Source: Nitrobacteraceae bacterium AZCC 2146
GTDB taxonomy: Bacteria > Pseudomonadota > Alphaproteobacteria > Rhizobiales > Xanthobacteraceae
Direction: 5' to 3'
Assembly: GCA_036924855.1 (NCBI GenBank)
Contig: JBAGRP010000001.1
Span: 4,588,001-4,652,000 of the forward strand
DNA: 64,000 nt
A program made the translations under genes and the position numbers. The notes below the pieces were generated by a model. The model ran no database searches. It had not been told where the DNA came from and saw only the letters and a program-made list of their open reading frames with translations. Positions 28,228-35,208 of this stretch are shown here, piece by piece. Every line of letters starts with the position of its first letter. Position 1 is the first letter of the stretch.

Positions 28228-28998
28228 ATGAAAACGATGGATAAGGCCGGCGAAACCACGCATTTCGGCTTCCGGGACGTCCCCGTGGACGACAAGCAGA
28301 CGCTGGTGAACGACGTGTTCCACAGCGTCGCCCGGCGTTACGACCTGATGAACGATCTGATGTCGGGCGGCCTGCACCGCGTCTGGAAGGACGTGATGAT
28401 CAATGCGCTGAACCCGCCGCGCTCCGACGCGCCGTTTGCGCTGCTCGACGTCGCCGGCGGCACCGGCGATATCTCGTTCCGCGCCGCCAAGGAGGCCGGC
28501 TATGGCTTCCACGCCACCGTCTGCGACATCAATTCCGGCATGCTGGCGGTAGGCCGCGAACGTGCGATCACGCGGCATCTGGAGCACCAGGTCTCCTTCG
28601 TCGAGGGCAATGCCGAGGCGCTGGAATTTCCCGATCGCAGTTTTGACGCCTACACCATCGCGTTCGGCATCCGCAACGTGCCGCGGATCGACCGCGCGCT
28701 GGCCGAGGCCTATCGCGTGCTGAAGCCGGGCAGCCGGTTTCTCTGCCTGGAATTCTCCACCGTCGACGTGCCCGGCCTCGACAGGATCTACGACCTGTTC
28801 TCGTTCAAGGTGATCCCGCCGCTCGGCAAGGCGGTCACCGGCGACGCCGAATCCTATCGCTACCTCGTCGAATCGATCCGGAAATTTCCAAAGCCGCCAG
28901 CTTTCTCCGAGATGATCCGCGATGCCGGATTTTCACGGGTGAATTATCAGCTCCTCACCGGCGGCATCGTCGCGCTGCATTCGGGCTGGCGTTTGTGA
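28228..28998 (+). CDS. ubiE: Demethylmenaquinone/2-polyprenyl-benzoquinol methyltransferase UbiE
   Basis: C-methylation step of ubiquinone (and menaquinone) synthesis. The product has 256 residues from the ATG at 28228, which follows a GAGG ribosome site; the ATG at 28237 is close behind and cannot be excluded. UbiE signatures: [20 protein letters not shown], then [18 protein letters not shown], the SAM motif [16 protein letters not shown], and [20 protein letters not shown]. The stop overlaps ubiB (GTGA). Divergent from mutM. Confidence 0.95.
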
Positions 28999-30563
28999 TC
29001 TCTGCTCTCTCGCATATGGCGCGGCTGGCCCGCGCCGGATTCGTGTTCGCGCGCGAAGGCGTGTTCGGCGTCGTCGATCCCTCGCTGGTGCCGCCGCCCG
29101 GCCAGCTCGCCTTGCGCATCGCGCGCCTGATCGAACGCCCCGGGGTGAAGTCCGGCCCGCGGCTGTCGCGCGCGCTGACGCGACTGGGCCCGGCCTATCT
29201 GAAACTCGGACAATTCCTCGCAACCAGACCCGACGTGGTCGGCGTCGTGATGGCGCGCGATCTCGAAAGCCTGCAGGACCGGCTGCCGCCGTTCTCGCAG
29301 GTGGAAGCCGAGGCCGTCGTCGCGGCGTCGCTGGAACGCCCGGTGGCGCAGGCCTTTGCGCATTTCGGCCCGCCGGTGGCCGCCGCCTCGATCGCGCAGG
29401 TGCATCGCGGCGAGACCGAAAAGAACGGTGTGCGGACGTCCGTCGCGGTGAAGGTGCTGCGGCCCAATGTGGCGTCGCGCTTCCGCCGCGACCTCGGCGA
29501 TTTCTTTTTTGTCGCGCACAACGCCGAAGCCCATTCCGCGGAAGCGCGCCGGCTGCGGCTGATCGAGATCATCAACACGATGTCGCGCTCGGTGGCGATG
29601 GAGATGGATCTGCGGCTGGAAGCGGCCGCTCTGTCCGAGATGGCGGAGAACACCAGGGACGATCCGGATTTTCGCGTGCCGAAGGTGGACTGGGATCGCA
29701 CCAGCCACAATGTGCTGACGATGGAATGGATCGACGGCATCGCGCTGAACGATCATGTGCGGCTGGAGGAGTCGCAGGTCGATTTGCCTGATCTCGGCCG
29801 CAAGGTGATCCAGAGTTTTCTGCGTCACGCGCTGCGCGACGGCTTCTTCCACGCCGACATGCATCCCGGCAACCTGTTCCTCGACGAGACCGGGCGGCTG
29901 GTTGCTGTCGACTTCGGCATCATGGGCCGACTCGGCATGAAGGAGCGGCGCTTCCTCGCGGAGATTCTGCTCGGCTTCATTACCCGCAACTATCGCCGCG
30001 TCGCCGAAGTGCACTTCGAGGCCGGCTATGTGCCCGCGCATCATTCGGTGGAAAATTTCGCGCAGGCGATCCGCGCCATCGGCGAACCGATTCATAACCG
30101 CACCGCCGAAGAAATCTCGATGGCGAAGCTGCTGACGCTGCTGCTCGAAGTCACCGGCCTGTTCGACATGCGCACGCGACCGGAACTGATCCTGCTGCAG
30201 AAGACCATGGTGGTGGTCGAAGGAGTCGCGCGCAGCTTCGATCCCAAACTCGACATCTGGAAAGTCGCCGATCCCGTGGTCCGCGAATGGATCGAACGCA
30301 ACCTCGGGCCGTTGGGAAAAATCCAGGGCGCGATGTCCGGTGCCGGCGAACTCGGCCGCGTGTTCTCAGGATTGCCGGCGATCGCCTCGCGCGCGGTCAC
30401 CGTGCTCGAACAGCTGGAGACCATGAGCCGCGAAGGCCTCCGGCTCGACCCGGAAACCATCGCCGCGATCGGCCGGACCAGGGCGCGTCAGGCGCGCTGG
30501 CGCAGCGTCGGAATCTGGGTGATCGCCCTGACCTTCCTTGGGATCCTCTGGTCGGTCCGCTAG
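28995..30563 (+). CDS. ubiB: Ubiquinone biosynthesis regulatory kinase-like protein UbiB
   Basis: Atypical protein-kinase-like ATPase needed for ubiquinone synthesis. The product has 522 residues and starts with GTG at 28995, overlapping the ubiE stop by four bases, so translation is coupled. Signatures of the family are the KxGQ motif ([13 protein letters not shown]), the Ala-rich nucleotide loop ([11 protein letters not shown]), VAVKVLRP with the kinase Lys, [11 protein letters not shown] and the metal-binding AVDFGIMG. Two C-terminal hydrophobic segments, the last at [12 protein letters not shown], anchor it to the membrane. Confidence 0.95.
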
Positions 30564-30593
30564 GCTGGGGTGATTGCAATGCCTTCATGATTA

Positions 30594-30610
30594 TGCTAGC
30601 ATTGCTATCA
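30594..30610 (+). promoter_or_regulatory. Tandem TGCTAGCA-T-TGCTATCA motif before coaBC, candidate RHH operator
   Basis: Two eight-base motifs one base apart, 20 bases upstream of the coaBC ATG. The first is a perfect palindrome (ATGCTAGCAT at 30593-30602 when extended). The second resembles the half-site I recall for the FitAB toxin-antitoxin operator. The adjacent gene encodes a FitA-like DNA-binding domain, which makes this a candidate self-operator. No binding data. Confidence 0.4.
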
Positions 30611-30629: not shown

Positions 30630-32053
30630 ATGGCCAGCCTGACGATCCGGAAACTCGACGACGCCATCCGCGATGAGCTGCGCCTCCGGGCCGCCCGCAA
30701 CGGCCGCTCGGTGGAGGATGAGGTGCGGGTCATCCTGCGCGAGGCGTCGCAACCGGACCGGCGACTTGCCACAGGTTTGCCGCAAGAGAATCCGCCAGAT
30801 CTGGCGCCCCGAAAGCGGCTTCAAACAGCGGTCGATCAGCCCCGCGTTACCCTGATCATCGGCGGCGGCATCGCCGCCTACAAGGCGCTCGATCTGATCC
30901 GGCGCCTGAAGGAGCGGCACATCCATGTCCGCTGCGTCCTCACTCGCGCCGCGCAGCAATTCGTCACCCCGCTGGCCGCCAGCGCGCTGTCCAACGAGCG
31001 CTGCTACACGGACCTGTTCGATCCGCAGAGCGAATTCGACGCGGGGCATATTCGCCTGGCGCGCGAATGCGACCTGATCATCGTGGCGCCCGCGACCGCC
31101 GACTTGATGGCGAAGATGGCGCAGGGCCATGCCGACGATCTTGCCACCGCTATCCTGCTCGCCGCCGACAAGAAAATCCTGCTGGCGCCGGCGATGAATC
31201 CGCTGATGTGGAACAACGCCGCGACCCGTCGCAACGTCGTGCAACTCGAGCGCGACGGCGTTGCGATGGTCGGCCCCAATGCCGGCGAGATGGCGGAAGC
31301 GGGTGAAGCCGGCGTCGGCCGGATGGCCGAGCCGTTGGAGATAGCCGTTGCGGCAGAGGCGTTTCTGCGCCCGCCGCGGCCGCGCCCACTCGCCGGCAAG
31401 CGCGTGCTGATCACCGCCGGCCCGACCCATGAGCCGATCGACCCCGTGCGCTACATCGCCAATCGCTCCTCGGGCAAGCAAGGCTTTGCGATCGCCGCCG
31501 CCGCACAAGCCGCAGGCGCCGACGTGATTCTCGTTTCAGGTCCGGTCGACCTCGACGATCCCCGCGGCGTGATGGTGAAGCATGTCGAATCCGCCCGCGA
31601 GATGCTCGCCGCCGTCGAAGCCGTCTTGCCCGTCGACATCGCGATCTTCGCCGCCGCCGTCGCCGACTGGCGCGTGGTAAGCGAAGGCGCGCAGAAGCTG
31701 AAGAAGACCGGCGCCGCCATGCCGCCGCTGCAGCTCACTGAAAACCCCGACATCCTCGCGACGATCTCGAAATTGACCGACAATCGACCGCCGCTGGTGA
31801 TCGGCTTTGCTGCGGAAACCGAGCATCTGATCGACAACGCCAAGGCAAAAATCGCGCGAAAGGGCTGCGACTGGATCGTCGCCAACGACGTTTCGCCCGC
31901 CACCGGTATCATGGGCGGCGACAGCAATACCGTGCATTTGCTGACGCGCAACGAAAGCGATATTGCCGTCGAGTCCTGGCCGGCGATGAGCAAGGAGCAA
32001 GTCGCGACAGCTTTGGTCGCGCGCATCGCCGAATACATTGAGAAAGAAAATTC

Positions 32054-32057
<4 letters not shown>
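30630..32057 (+). CDS. coaBC: CoaBC with N-terminal FitA/VapB-like ribbon-helix-helix domain
   Basis: Bifunctional enzyme that joins cysteine to 4'-phosphopantothenate (CoaB) and decarboxylates the product (CoaC) in coenzyme A synthesis. The product has 475 residues. Residues 1-40 ([20 protein letters not shown], then [16 protein letters not shown]) match the FitA/VapB RHH antitoxin fold. CoaC follows ([41 protein letters not shown]), then CoaB ([46 protein letters not shown]). The ACG motif that carries the reducing cysteine of CoaC reads EAG here (A224). It overlaps dut by four bases. ATG at 30630 is chosen over a TTG five codons upstream. Confidence 0.93.
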
Positions 32058-32512
<455 letters not shown>

Positions 32513-32682
32513 CGCACCCGCAGACTGCGGAACCATCGGAGAACGAATATCGCGCGGCATTTTTTCGCGACGCGCTTTGCGTTCACGGTCTGGACTCTTA
32601 CCCGCCGACTCCCGAAGGGGATATTGTCAATCGATTCGCGAGCGGTGAGGGGCCGATCGGGAAGACGTGCGGTTTGGGGCGA

Positions 32683-35208
32683 ATGATGTCAGGCGTGATC
32701 GCGGCGATGCGTCGGACCTTGCTATCGTGCACCTCACTGGTGCGCGATGGGCTCGTGGGATTCGGCGCGTCTGCAGTCTTGGCGACCTCCTCGGCGCGGG
32801 CCGCCGACCCCATCATCGGCCAGGCGCTCGCCACCTTCTTCGATCTCGACCGCCAGGAGATCGCAGCGCTGACGCTGGCGCTGGCCGTGCTCGGCTTTTC
32901 CGTCGTCGCCACCATCCTGCTGATGCGCAACCGAATTCGCGCGGAAAAGACCGAAGCGCGGCTGCGCACCGAACTGCACGGCCTGCAGGTCGAAGCTGAC
33001 CGTTTTCGCGCGCTGCTGTTCGCCGAGCCGCAGGTCCTGATCTCATGGGCCGCCGGCGACAGCCGGCCGGAAATCAGTGGCGACACCTCGCTGGTGATGT
33101 CGCAGGACCCGCAGCATCATCAGCCGCAACGCATTCTTGCTTTCGGCACCTGGCTGCCGCCGGAGCCGGCGCTGCAGATGGATCACGCCGTCGATGCGCT
33201 GCTCGACGCCGGCGAAGGCTTCATTCTCAATCTGACCACCTCCACCGGCCGCGCCATCGAGGCGATGGGCCGCGCCATTGGCGGCCAGGCCATCGTCCGG
33301 ATCCGCGAACTCAGCGGCCTGCGCCGCGAACTCGCCGAGATGACGCTGCGTCACAAGGAATTGTCGGAAGAGACGGAGACACTGCGCGGCTTTGCCGCTG
33401 CGGCACCGTGGCCGATCTGGGCGAAGCGCGGCGGCGGCGGCGGACTGAGCTTTGCCAACGCCGCCTATGCACGGGCGACCGAAGCCAATGGCGTTAACGA
33501 CGCGATCAATCGCAACCTCGAACTGCTCGAGAGCGACGACCGCAACAATCTCGCTCGCGCGCTGAACGACAACCAGCCATTCTCCGCCCGGGTGCCAATC
33601 GTAATATCGGGCGAGCGCCGCATCTATGATGTTCACGCGCTCAACGTCCCCGGCGGCAGCGCCGGCATGGCGATCGACGCCAGCGAAGCTTCCGCGCTCA
33701 GTGCTGCGCTGGTGCGGATGGCCGAAGCGCATCGCCGCACCCTCGATCAACTGTCGTCCGGTGTCGCGGTGTTCGACGCGCAGCGACGCCTCGCCTTCTA
33801 CAACGATTCCTATCGTCGGCTGTGGGATCTCGACCGTACCTTCCTCGACAACACGCCCGACGATTCCAGCGTGCTGGATCGCCTGCGCGCTGCGCGCAAA
33901 TTGCCGGAGCAGCCGGATTTTCGGGCGTGGAAAGCCAAACTGCACGAGGCCTACCGCGCCGTCGAGCCGGCGAAAGATGTCTGGTATCTGCCCGACGGCC
34001 GCGCGCTCAGCATCGTCACCACGCCGAATCCCGAAGGCGGCGTCACCTATCTGTTCGACGACATCACCGAAAGCCTCGAACTGACACGGCGTTTCGACGG
34101 CCTGATCCGGGTCCAGCGCGAAACGCTGGATAATCTCGCCGAAGCCGTCGCGGTGTTCGGCAGCAATGGCCGCGCGCAGTTGTTTAATCCCGCCTTCGCG
34201 AAGATGTGGAAGCTGTCGGACGAGGCGCTGCAGGAGCATCCGCATATCGAGATGGTGGAATCCTGGTGCCGGCCGCTGTTCGACGATGCCGCGACCTGGC
34301 AAATATTGCGCGGCGCCATCACCGGAATCGAGAATCGCGCCGCGGTGCCGCTCAAGCTGGAACGCAAGGACGGCAGTGTGCTCGACTGCATGACCATGCC
34401 GCTACCCGACGGCGCCACCATGCTGACGTTCCAGGACATTTCCGACGCCGAGAACGTCGAGCGCGCGCTGCGCGAACGCAACGAGGCCCTGGAAGCCGCC
34501 GACCAGATGAAGGTCGACTTCGTCCACCACGTCTCCTACGAGCTGCGCTCGCCGCTCACCACCATCATCGGCTTCGCGCATTTGCTGAGCGATCCGATCA
34601 CCGGCCCACTGATGCCGAAGCAGGCCGAGTACCTCGACTACATCACCACCTCGACCGGCGCGCTGCTGGCGATCATCAACAACATCCTCGATCTCGCCAC
34701 CATCGACGCCGGCGCGATGACGCTCAATCTCGGCCCGATCGATATCCGCAAGACCATCGACGACGCCGCCGAAGGCATCCAGGACCGCCTGGCGCGCGAC
34801 CGCATTGCGCTGCAGATCGACGTCGATCCCTCGATCGGCAATTTCACCGGCGACGAACGCCGCGTCGTGCAGGTGCTGTATAATCTGCTCGCCAATGCGG
34901 TCGGCTTCTCGCCGCAGGATGCCGCCATTACACTTACCGCGCGGCGTTCCGAGCATAGTGTGATCTTCACCGTCACCGATCGCGGCCCCGGCATTCCACC
35001 CGAGGTCAAGGACAAGGTGTTCGACTGGTTCGAAAGCCACGCCAACGGCTCGCGGCATCGCGGCGCCGGGCTCGGCCTGTCGCTAGTGCGCTCCTTCGTC
35101 GAATTGCACGGCGGCAAGGTGCGCGTCGATTCCGTGGTCGGCAAGGGCACCACCGTCACCTGCGACTTTCCTATCGACCAGACCGCACATCGCAACGCCG
35201 CGGAATGA
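32683..35208 (+). CDS. divL: DivL-type tyrosine kinase-like cell-cycle regulator
   Basis: Membrane PAS-containing histidine-kinase homologue that acts as a scaffold in the CckA-CtrA phosphorelay. From the ATG at 32683 the product has 841 residues. An N-terminal membrane segment (LALAVLGFSVVATILLM) is followed by several PAS-like domains, then a DHp helix and an ATPase domain. The phospho-acceptor site reads VSYELRSPLTT with Tyr619 where other kinases have His; this tyrosine is the hallmark of DivL. The ATPase boxes (NLLANAVGFSP, DRGPGIPPEV, GAGLGLSLVRSFVE) look complete. Its stop overlaps tsaE-amgK by four bases. Confidence 0.9.
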   Translation: MMSGVIAAMRRTLLSCTSLVRDGLVGFGASAVLATSSARAADPIIGQALATFFDLDRQEIAALTLALAVLGFSVVATILLMRNRIRAEKTEARLRTELHGLQVEADRFRALLFAEPQVLISWAAGDSRPEISGDTSLVMSQDPQHHQPQRILAFGTWLPPEPALQMDHAVDALLDAGEGFILNLTTSTGRAIEAMGRAIGGQAIVRIRELSGLRRELAEMTLRHKELSEETETLRGFAAAAPWPIWAKRGGGGGLSFANAAYARATEANGVNDAINRNLELLESDDRNNLARALNDNQPFSARVPIVISGERRIYDVHALNVPGGSAGMAIDASEASALSAALVRMAEAHRRTLDQLSSGVAVFDAQRRLAFYNDSYRRLWDLDRTFLDNTPDDSSVLDRLRAARKLPEQPDFRAWKAKLHEAYRAVEPAKDVWYLPDGRALSIVTTPNPEGGVTYLFDDITESLELTRRFDGLIRVQRETLDNLAEAVAVFGSNGRAQLFNPAFAKMWKLSDEALQEHPHIEMVESWCRPLFDDAATWQILRGAITGIENRAAVPLKLERKDGSVLDCMTMPLPDGATMLTFQDISDAENVERALRERNEALEAADQMKVDFVHHVSYELRSPLTTIIGFAHLLSDPITGPLMPKQAEYLDYITTSTGALLAIINNILDLATIDAGAMTLNLGPIDIRKTIDDAAEGIQDRLARDRIALQIDVDPSIGNFTGDERRVVQVLYNLLANAVGFSPQDAAITLTARRSEHSVIFTVTDRGPGIPPEVKDKVFDWFESHANGSRHRGAGLGLSLVRSFVELHGGKVRVDSVVGKGTTVTCDFPIDQTAHRNAAE

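Follow-up and report, generated by a model that had tools for sequence, protein, structure and literature searches.

A FitA-family antitoxin domain fused to CoaBC and a candidate operator through which the enzyme probably regulates its own operon

The window, a stretch of 64,000 nucleotides from Nitrobacteraceae bacterium AZCC 2146, carries a coaBC gene between a ubiB-like gene and dut, with a candidate operator in the gap that separates ubiB from coaBC. The features of the locus are as follows.

28995..30563, + strand: ubiB-like gene (ABC1 kinase), the upstream neighbour; PF03109, E 2.5e-76
30571..30587, + strand: operator pair 1, TGATTGCA-A-TGCCTTCA, a pair of 8-bp boxes at a 9-bp spacing; one mismatch to the search pattern
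30594..30610, + strand: operator pair 2, TGCTAGCA-T-TGCTATCA, a pair of 8-bp boxes at a 9-bp spacing; no mismatches; 23 bp from pair 1
30630..32057, + strand: coaBC with an N-terminal ribbon-helix-helix (RHH) domain, 475 residues; frame open from the ATG at 30630
30633..30746, + strand: FitA-like RHH domain, residues 2-39; PF22513, AlphaFold2 helices and Foldseek
30747..30836, + strand: linker, residues 40-69; variable in length, predicted to be disordered, without the REPxxF toxin-binding tail
30843..31331, + strand: CoaC flavoprotein domain, residues 72-234; PF02441, E 3e-30
31389..31943, + strand: CoaB/DFP domain, residues 254-438; PF04127, E 5e-69
32054..32512, + strand: dut (dUTPase); PF00692, E 1.6e-30; its ATG overlaps the coaBC stop (ATGA)

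Because the dut start codon overlaps the coaBC stop codon, the two genes are probably co-transcribed under the same operator.

The sequence-only reading had proposed that the first 40 residues of this protein are an antitoxin-type RHH domain joined in frame to an otherwise ordinary CoaBC, and both parts of the proposal were borne out. The Pfam model of the FitA-like RHH domain (PF22513) matches residues 2-39 far above its cut-off (56.8 bits, cut-off 27; E 2.2e-15) and was found again when residues 1-70 were searched alone (E 5.4e-17); the same 70 residues had no match in NCBIfam, RHH models included. The CoaBC equivalog TIGR00521 of NCBIfam matches residues 71-466 (E 6e-115; 384.5 bits, cut-off 219.7), and the CoaC and CoaB domains are both complete within the 475-residue open frame. 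Of the two family names that had been offered for the domain, FitA stands and generic VapB is the poorer label. A sequence search of solved structures placed FitA (2bsq/2h1o) nearest, at E 0.001, and Foldseek with the isolated domain returned DNA-bound FitA chains at the top, followed by VapB12, CopG, Arc and the RHH domain of PutA, all at E-values of 0.04 or above and none reaching 0.001. AlphaFold2 modelled the isolated domain at pLDDT 90, with RHH helices at residues 11-24 and 28-40, and the CoaBC core mostly with confidence (mean pLDDT 81.7); residues 44-68 of the linker are disordered in the model (pLDDT below 50), and the ribbon strand of the RHH fold is not visible in the monomer. Among named sequences, Tardiphaga supplies most of the best matches to residues 1-70. 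Profile scoring of 150 of 177 candidates found no other PF22513 domain in the 7.64-Mb genome, which also lacks a second coaBC.

At the genus level, purifying selection is stronger on the RHH domain than on the first part of the core: pooled over 16 same-genus loci, pN/pS is 0.076 for the RHH codons versus 0.145 for the first 150 core residues. Residues R7, L9, R20, G25, R26, S27, E29, E31 and R33 are each retained in 73 of 74 distinct fused versions, and linker length within the genus ranges from 29 to 43 residues. A true start near residue 75, which the sequence-only reading had raised against itself, was rejected, since residues 1-39 are conserved in frame across the 74 distinct versions with low pN/pS; that the operator boxes precede codon 1 also disfavours it.

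The gap between ubiB and coaBC is 66 bp long and holds four TG-N4-CA boxes, arrayed as TGATTGCA-A-TGCCTTCA-N6-TGCTAGCA-T-TGCTATCA at 30571-30610, a FitA-type operator that was absent from the sequence-only reading. Using TGMTWKCAWTGMTWKCA as the paired-box search pattern and allowing up to one mismatch, we found two places in the whole 7.64-Mb genome, both 19-59 bp before the coaBC ATG, and the reversed-pattern control found none. A scan of the operator for sigma-70 elements and terminators gave no match, a result that is uninformative for other promoter types.

Spacing statistics over 111 unique fused promoters, set against shuffles, define the geometry of the array. TG-N4-CA boxes stand 9 bp apart 146 times against a shuffle mean of 0.15; the corresponding figures are 73 and 0.14 at 22 bp, 38 and 0.19 at 23 bp, and 62 in all and 0.34 at 31-32 bp. 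The 9-bp and 22-23-bp spacings together describe a typical operator in which about two helical turns separate two 17-bp pairs. Among all 146 17-mers, 37 carry two identical half-sites, where shuffling the partners gives 19.8 (at most 30 in 2,000 shuffles), an excess in dyad symmetry that is not significant over the 62 distinct 17-mer types (138 of 2,000 shuffles as high).

To compare promoters, six 8-bp boxes were picked by eye from the upstream regions of a first set of loci, and a box was scored as present when at least one of the six lay within 120 bp upstream of the start. Boxes occur in 93 of the 95 unique fused promoters of this set against 0 of 28 non-fused ones, where the 28 include L073, a fused gene with a broken frame that was read from inside its RHH domain and whose true upstream region carries boxes, and L030, which has the same fitA-remnant arrangement as L114; shuffled upstream regions averaged about 0.01 boxes. 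L088, with only 49 bp of upstream sequence, was omitted; L028 and L150 are fragmentary and lack a start. A held-out set combined fused family genomes lacking an exact 17-bp match with non-fused genomes. Here boxes occur in 16 of 20 fused promoters (12 of 16 once four copies of already-seen promoters are removed) versus one of 35 non-fused promoters, among which L174, L184, L185 and L192 yielded no ATG, GTG or TTG and may have a misplaced upstream stretch; the one non-fused locus that scored, L163, has a single box.

The four held-out misses comprise three degenerate operator regions, in L199 (TGATCGCA-A-TGCGATCA), L201 (TGACGGCA-T-TGCATTCA) and L202 (the near-dyad TGACCGCA-T-CGCGGTCA), and one, L207, displaced by an insertion. 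In L207 and its congener L233 (= G083) the four-box array still adjoins ubiB and an inserted stretch separates it from the gene start, such that the pairs end 163 and 185 bp before the ATG in L207, and 251 and 274 bp before it in L233, whose boxes span 251-291 bp upstream. The stretch between boxes and coaBC start in these two loci, both of genus g67, is GC-rich and repeat-like, with words such as gccgggcttgacccggcc. Where fitA-fitB precedes coaBC, none of five loci has a box directly before coaBC; the boxes, if any, stand before fitA. Many of the compared promoters are related by descent, and independent contrasts between domain and operator number four well-supported pairs, three of them as expected, none opposite and one without a difference (p 0.25). 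With so few independent contrasts, the weight rests on the genome-wide uniqueness of the array, its spacing, the operators of standalone fitA genes and a second fusion.

Across 296 family genomes, some of which may be of the same species as the named loci, the exact pattern is present in 111 and the reversed control in one. Counting both strands of one place as one, there are 120 places among the matches listed: 85 of these (in 77 genomes) sit 7-148 bp before RHH-coaBC, 12 precede a standalone fitA by 10-60 bp, and the script left 23 unassigned. Twelve of the 23 were examined by eye; L243 and L245 precede FitA-type open reading frames, L233 is the fused coaBC with the displaced operator, and the other nine have no recognisable FitA gene. 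Inspection by hand of nine fitA loci found an exact box within 130 bp in six (L142, L143, L144, L145, L146 and L148), a TGCATGCA pair outside the six boxes in L147, one weaker box in L141 and none in L114.

A survey of CoaBC architectures, a check suggested by the sequence-only reading, found the fusion in at least 186 of the 292 family genomes with a coaBC match, with 81 non-fused and 25 not classed; eight of the 186, including G008, were pieced together over contigs or frames, two of these being seen only as the RHH end. A sample of the order (142 of 145 genomes with a match) contained just two fused genes outside the window's own family, both in a second family, f24, and in a sample of the class (104 of 137) the fusion occurs only in the window's own genome. 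In the CoaBC tree the f24 fusions are far removed from the fused f1 sequences, and they have a TGATTGCATTGCTATCA of their own; at least two independent origins of the fusion within the order are therefore likely. Within f1 our first tree calls for six changes of the fused state, which may represent losses or additional gains; well-supported branches force at least three of the six.

A complete fitA-fitB module stands between ubiB and coaBC in L154, L155, L156, L157 and L158 (f1) and in L217 (f35). In L216 (f24), positions 605-1475 hold two FitA-like genes (69 and 84 residues) and a PIN gene (135 residues) between ubiB and coaBC; two other species of its genus carry the fusion. Pfam confirmed PIN in all seven of these loci, and FitA wherever a fitA was tested (L154, L155, L157, L158, L217, L114, L251 and both of L216). 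It may be that fitAB modules insert repeatedly into the ubiB-coaBC gap. Boxes before fitA read TGATTGCA-A-TGCAATCA in L154, TGATTGCA-C-TGCAATCA in L158 and TGATTGCA-T-TGATGGCA in L157, and L217 has a single box upstream; none of the six boxes lies within 250 bp of fitA in L114, L155 or L156. L114 and L251 have an intact fitA and a fitB shrunk to a short remnant before coaBC, and L251 carries TGATTGCA-T-TGATTGCA-G-TGCAATCA. A second tree, built without the far outgroups L119, L129 and L124, places L251 among fused relatives and L114 and L154 in a neighbouring group. These arrangements suggest intermediates leading from fitA-fitB-coaBC, through fitA with a fitB remnant before coaBC, to the fusion; the deep branches of the tree are weakly supported, hence we infer rather than read off the order of gains and losses.

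Standalone FitAB, a type II toxin-antitoxin system with a PIN toxin, offers one comparison. The FitAB structure reportedly has the toxin contacted through the C-terminal tail of FitA. According to the review PMC3920265, the RHH fold tethers FitA dimers to their operator, and four FitA-FitB heterodimers occupy 36 bp in the FitAB-DNA complex. RHH-CoaBC resembles this system in the RHH family (PF22513), in the paired boxes of its own promoter and in a box type that also precedes many of the standalone fitA genes in this bacterial family; unlike FitAB, its RHH domain is fused to a biosynthetic enzyme and would control a housekeeping operon, the neighbouring genes are ubiB and dut with no adjacent PIN toxin gene, and the toxin-binding tail has been lost.

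The closest functional model is trifunctional PutA (RHH-proline dehydrogenase-P5C dehydrogenase), a metabolic flavoenzyme that bears an N-terminal RHH domain and represses its own gene autogenously (PMC5293562). Both proteins have an RHH domain on an enzyme and an operator-like site at their own gene, which for RHH-CoaBC we recognise from the DNA sequence. RHH-CoaBC differs in being anabolic, in its enzyme and pathway, in having a FitA-family RHH domain with a traceable toxin-antitoxin context and in having no known membrane switch; repression, too, is presumed here. To our knowledge, little has been written on how CoaBC is controlled at the level of transcription. The control that PMC7794376 describes is exerted at CoaB, where CoA and its thioesters inhibit the enzyme. 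RHH-CoaBC shares the complete CoaC and CoaB domains of ordinary bifunctional CoaBC, whereas the Mycobacterium smegmatis enzyme (6TGV, model residues 2-412) begins with CoaC at residue 1 and has no RHH domain. Among the papers listed by our searches of open-access PMC text, none concerns CoaBC with an RHH or antitoxin domain; the parts are of known kinds, and their combination and the toxin-antitoxin context appear new.

We therefore read RHH-CoaBC, with a probability of roughly 0.85, as a moonlighting autoregulator of coaBC-dut that would act through an N-terminally fused, domesticated FitA antitoxin domain. That the fusion couples CoA synthesis to DNA binding, as the sequence-only reading had ventured, is strongly supported by the FitA-type operator found directly upstream. 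The protein very probably binds this candidate operator. We infer physical binding, stoichiometry, repression over activation, evolutionary direction and response to CoA thioesters or substrates along the following lines. RHH domains of neighbouring CoaBC protomers would pair, and one RHH dimer would occupy each 8-bp TG-N4-CA box, making contact through the N-terminal beta-ribbon, so that a 17-bp box pair would hold two dimers side by side. A CoaBC oligomer could bridge both pairs, 22-23 bp apart, a dodecamer of the mycobacterial type offering up to six RHH dimers. The bound protein would lower coaBC-dut transcription, and the amount of CoaBC would thereby set its own synthesis; a net effect of repression is likely. 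Gating by metabolites is a tentative suggestion, for which the CoA-thioester inhibition of the mycobacterial enzyme (PMC7794376) makes a plausible signal. Operator and domain would have been inherited from a fitA-fitB operon between ubiB and coaBC in which fitB decayed and fitA was fused. On balance we favour, with some reserve, a history in which the antitoxin of a dismantled toxin-antitoxin operon became, at least twice in this order, a single-target repressor, such that enzyme amount, assembly and perhaps CoA or acyl-CoA load gate coaBC and dut.

The role of chromosomal toxin-antitoxin modules in their hosts is disputed. This locus may illustrate how a toxin-antitoxin operon could turn into a metabolic autoregulator, with toxin present, toxin decayed and antitoxin fused, and would, if the reading is true, provide a second RHH-enzyme autorepressor besides PutA. 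The operator is sharply defined, which makes binding, repression and ligand response amenable to test in common soil genera such as Tardiphaga or Bradyrhizobium.

Four other readings were weighed. RHH domains dimerise. Mycobacterial CoaBC is a dodecamer (PMC7794376), and the domain could on these grounds merely aid CoaBC oligomerisation, its DNA binding lost, as the sequence-only reading had also considered. We hold this to be very improbable: it leaves unexplained the co-occurrence of operator and domain, the uniqueness of the boxes in the genome and the near-invariant N-terminal residues, R7 among them, and non-fused relatives manage without the domain. Nor do we give much credence to the boxes being standard promoter elements or a site for some other regulator, kept by descent in the fused clade, an idea that can draw on the relatedness of the fused sequences, the four well-supported contrasts, the many factors that a palindrome can serve and the 23 of 120 listed places left unassigned by script. 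The same boxes precede standalone fitA genes and the f24 fusions, are mostly missing from non-fused members of the family, and stay beside ubiB in L207 and L233 despite the insertion before the gene start; moreover, a fixed spacing of 9 and 22-23 bp with changing letters is unlike -35/-10 elements.

The domain is antitoxin-derived, and the genome has three PIN matches, two of them above the cut-off, so that it might have been retained as an anti-addiction factor that neutralises PIN toxins. This is extremely improbable, given that none of the PIN matches is near coaBC and that the REPxxF-type tail of standalone FitA (L154-L158) is missing from all 74 distinct fused versions; with the toxin-binding tail absent, we rejected toxin neutralisation as the main role. 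It is unlikely, lastly, that RHH-CoaBC binds its operator yet mainly activates, or regulates many genes. Weaker sites could exist beyond the pattern at up to one mismatch, and the direction of regulation is presumed, but the genome has no second paired-box site at up to one mismatch, leaving a regulon unsupported there. FitA, CopG and Arc are repressors. The related PutA is likewise a repressor (PMC5293562), and autorepression by RHH-CoaBC is the reading we retain.

Some smaller observations concern the surrounding material. A perfect TGATATCA-W-TGATATCA precedes standalone FitA-type open reading frames in L238, L239, L242, L243 and L245, which suggests that one fitAB subfamily has a box variant of its own. 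The same element in L237 and L241 adjoins another open reading frame, with no FitA gene seen beside it, that we take to resemble tRNA-dihydrouridine synthase. At 3001-3213 of L073, from an Afipia metagenome-assembled genome, a frameshift or an assembly error breaks the RHH-coaBC frame after the RHH domain and before the core. Downstream of dut, positions 32674-35208 of the window encode a large PAS-containing histidine kinase (PF12860, PF00512 and PF02518).
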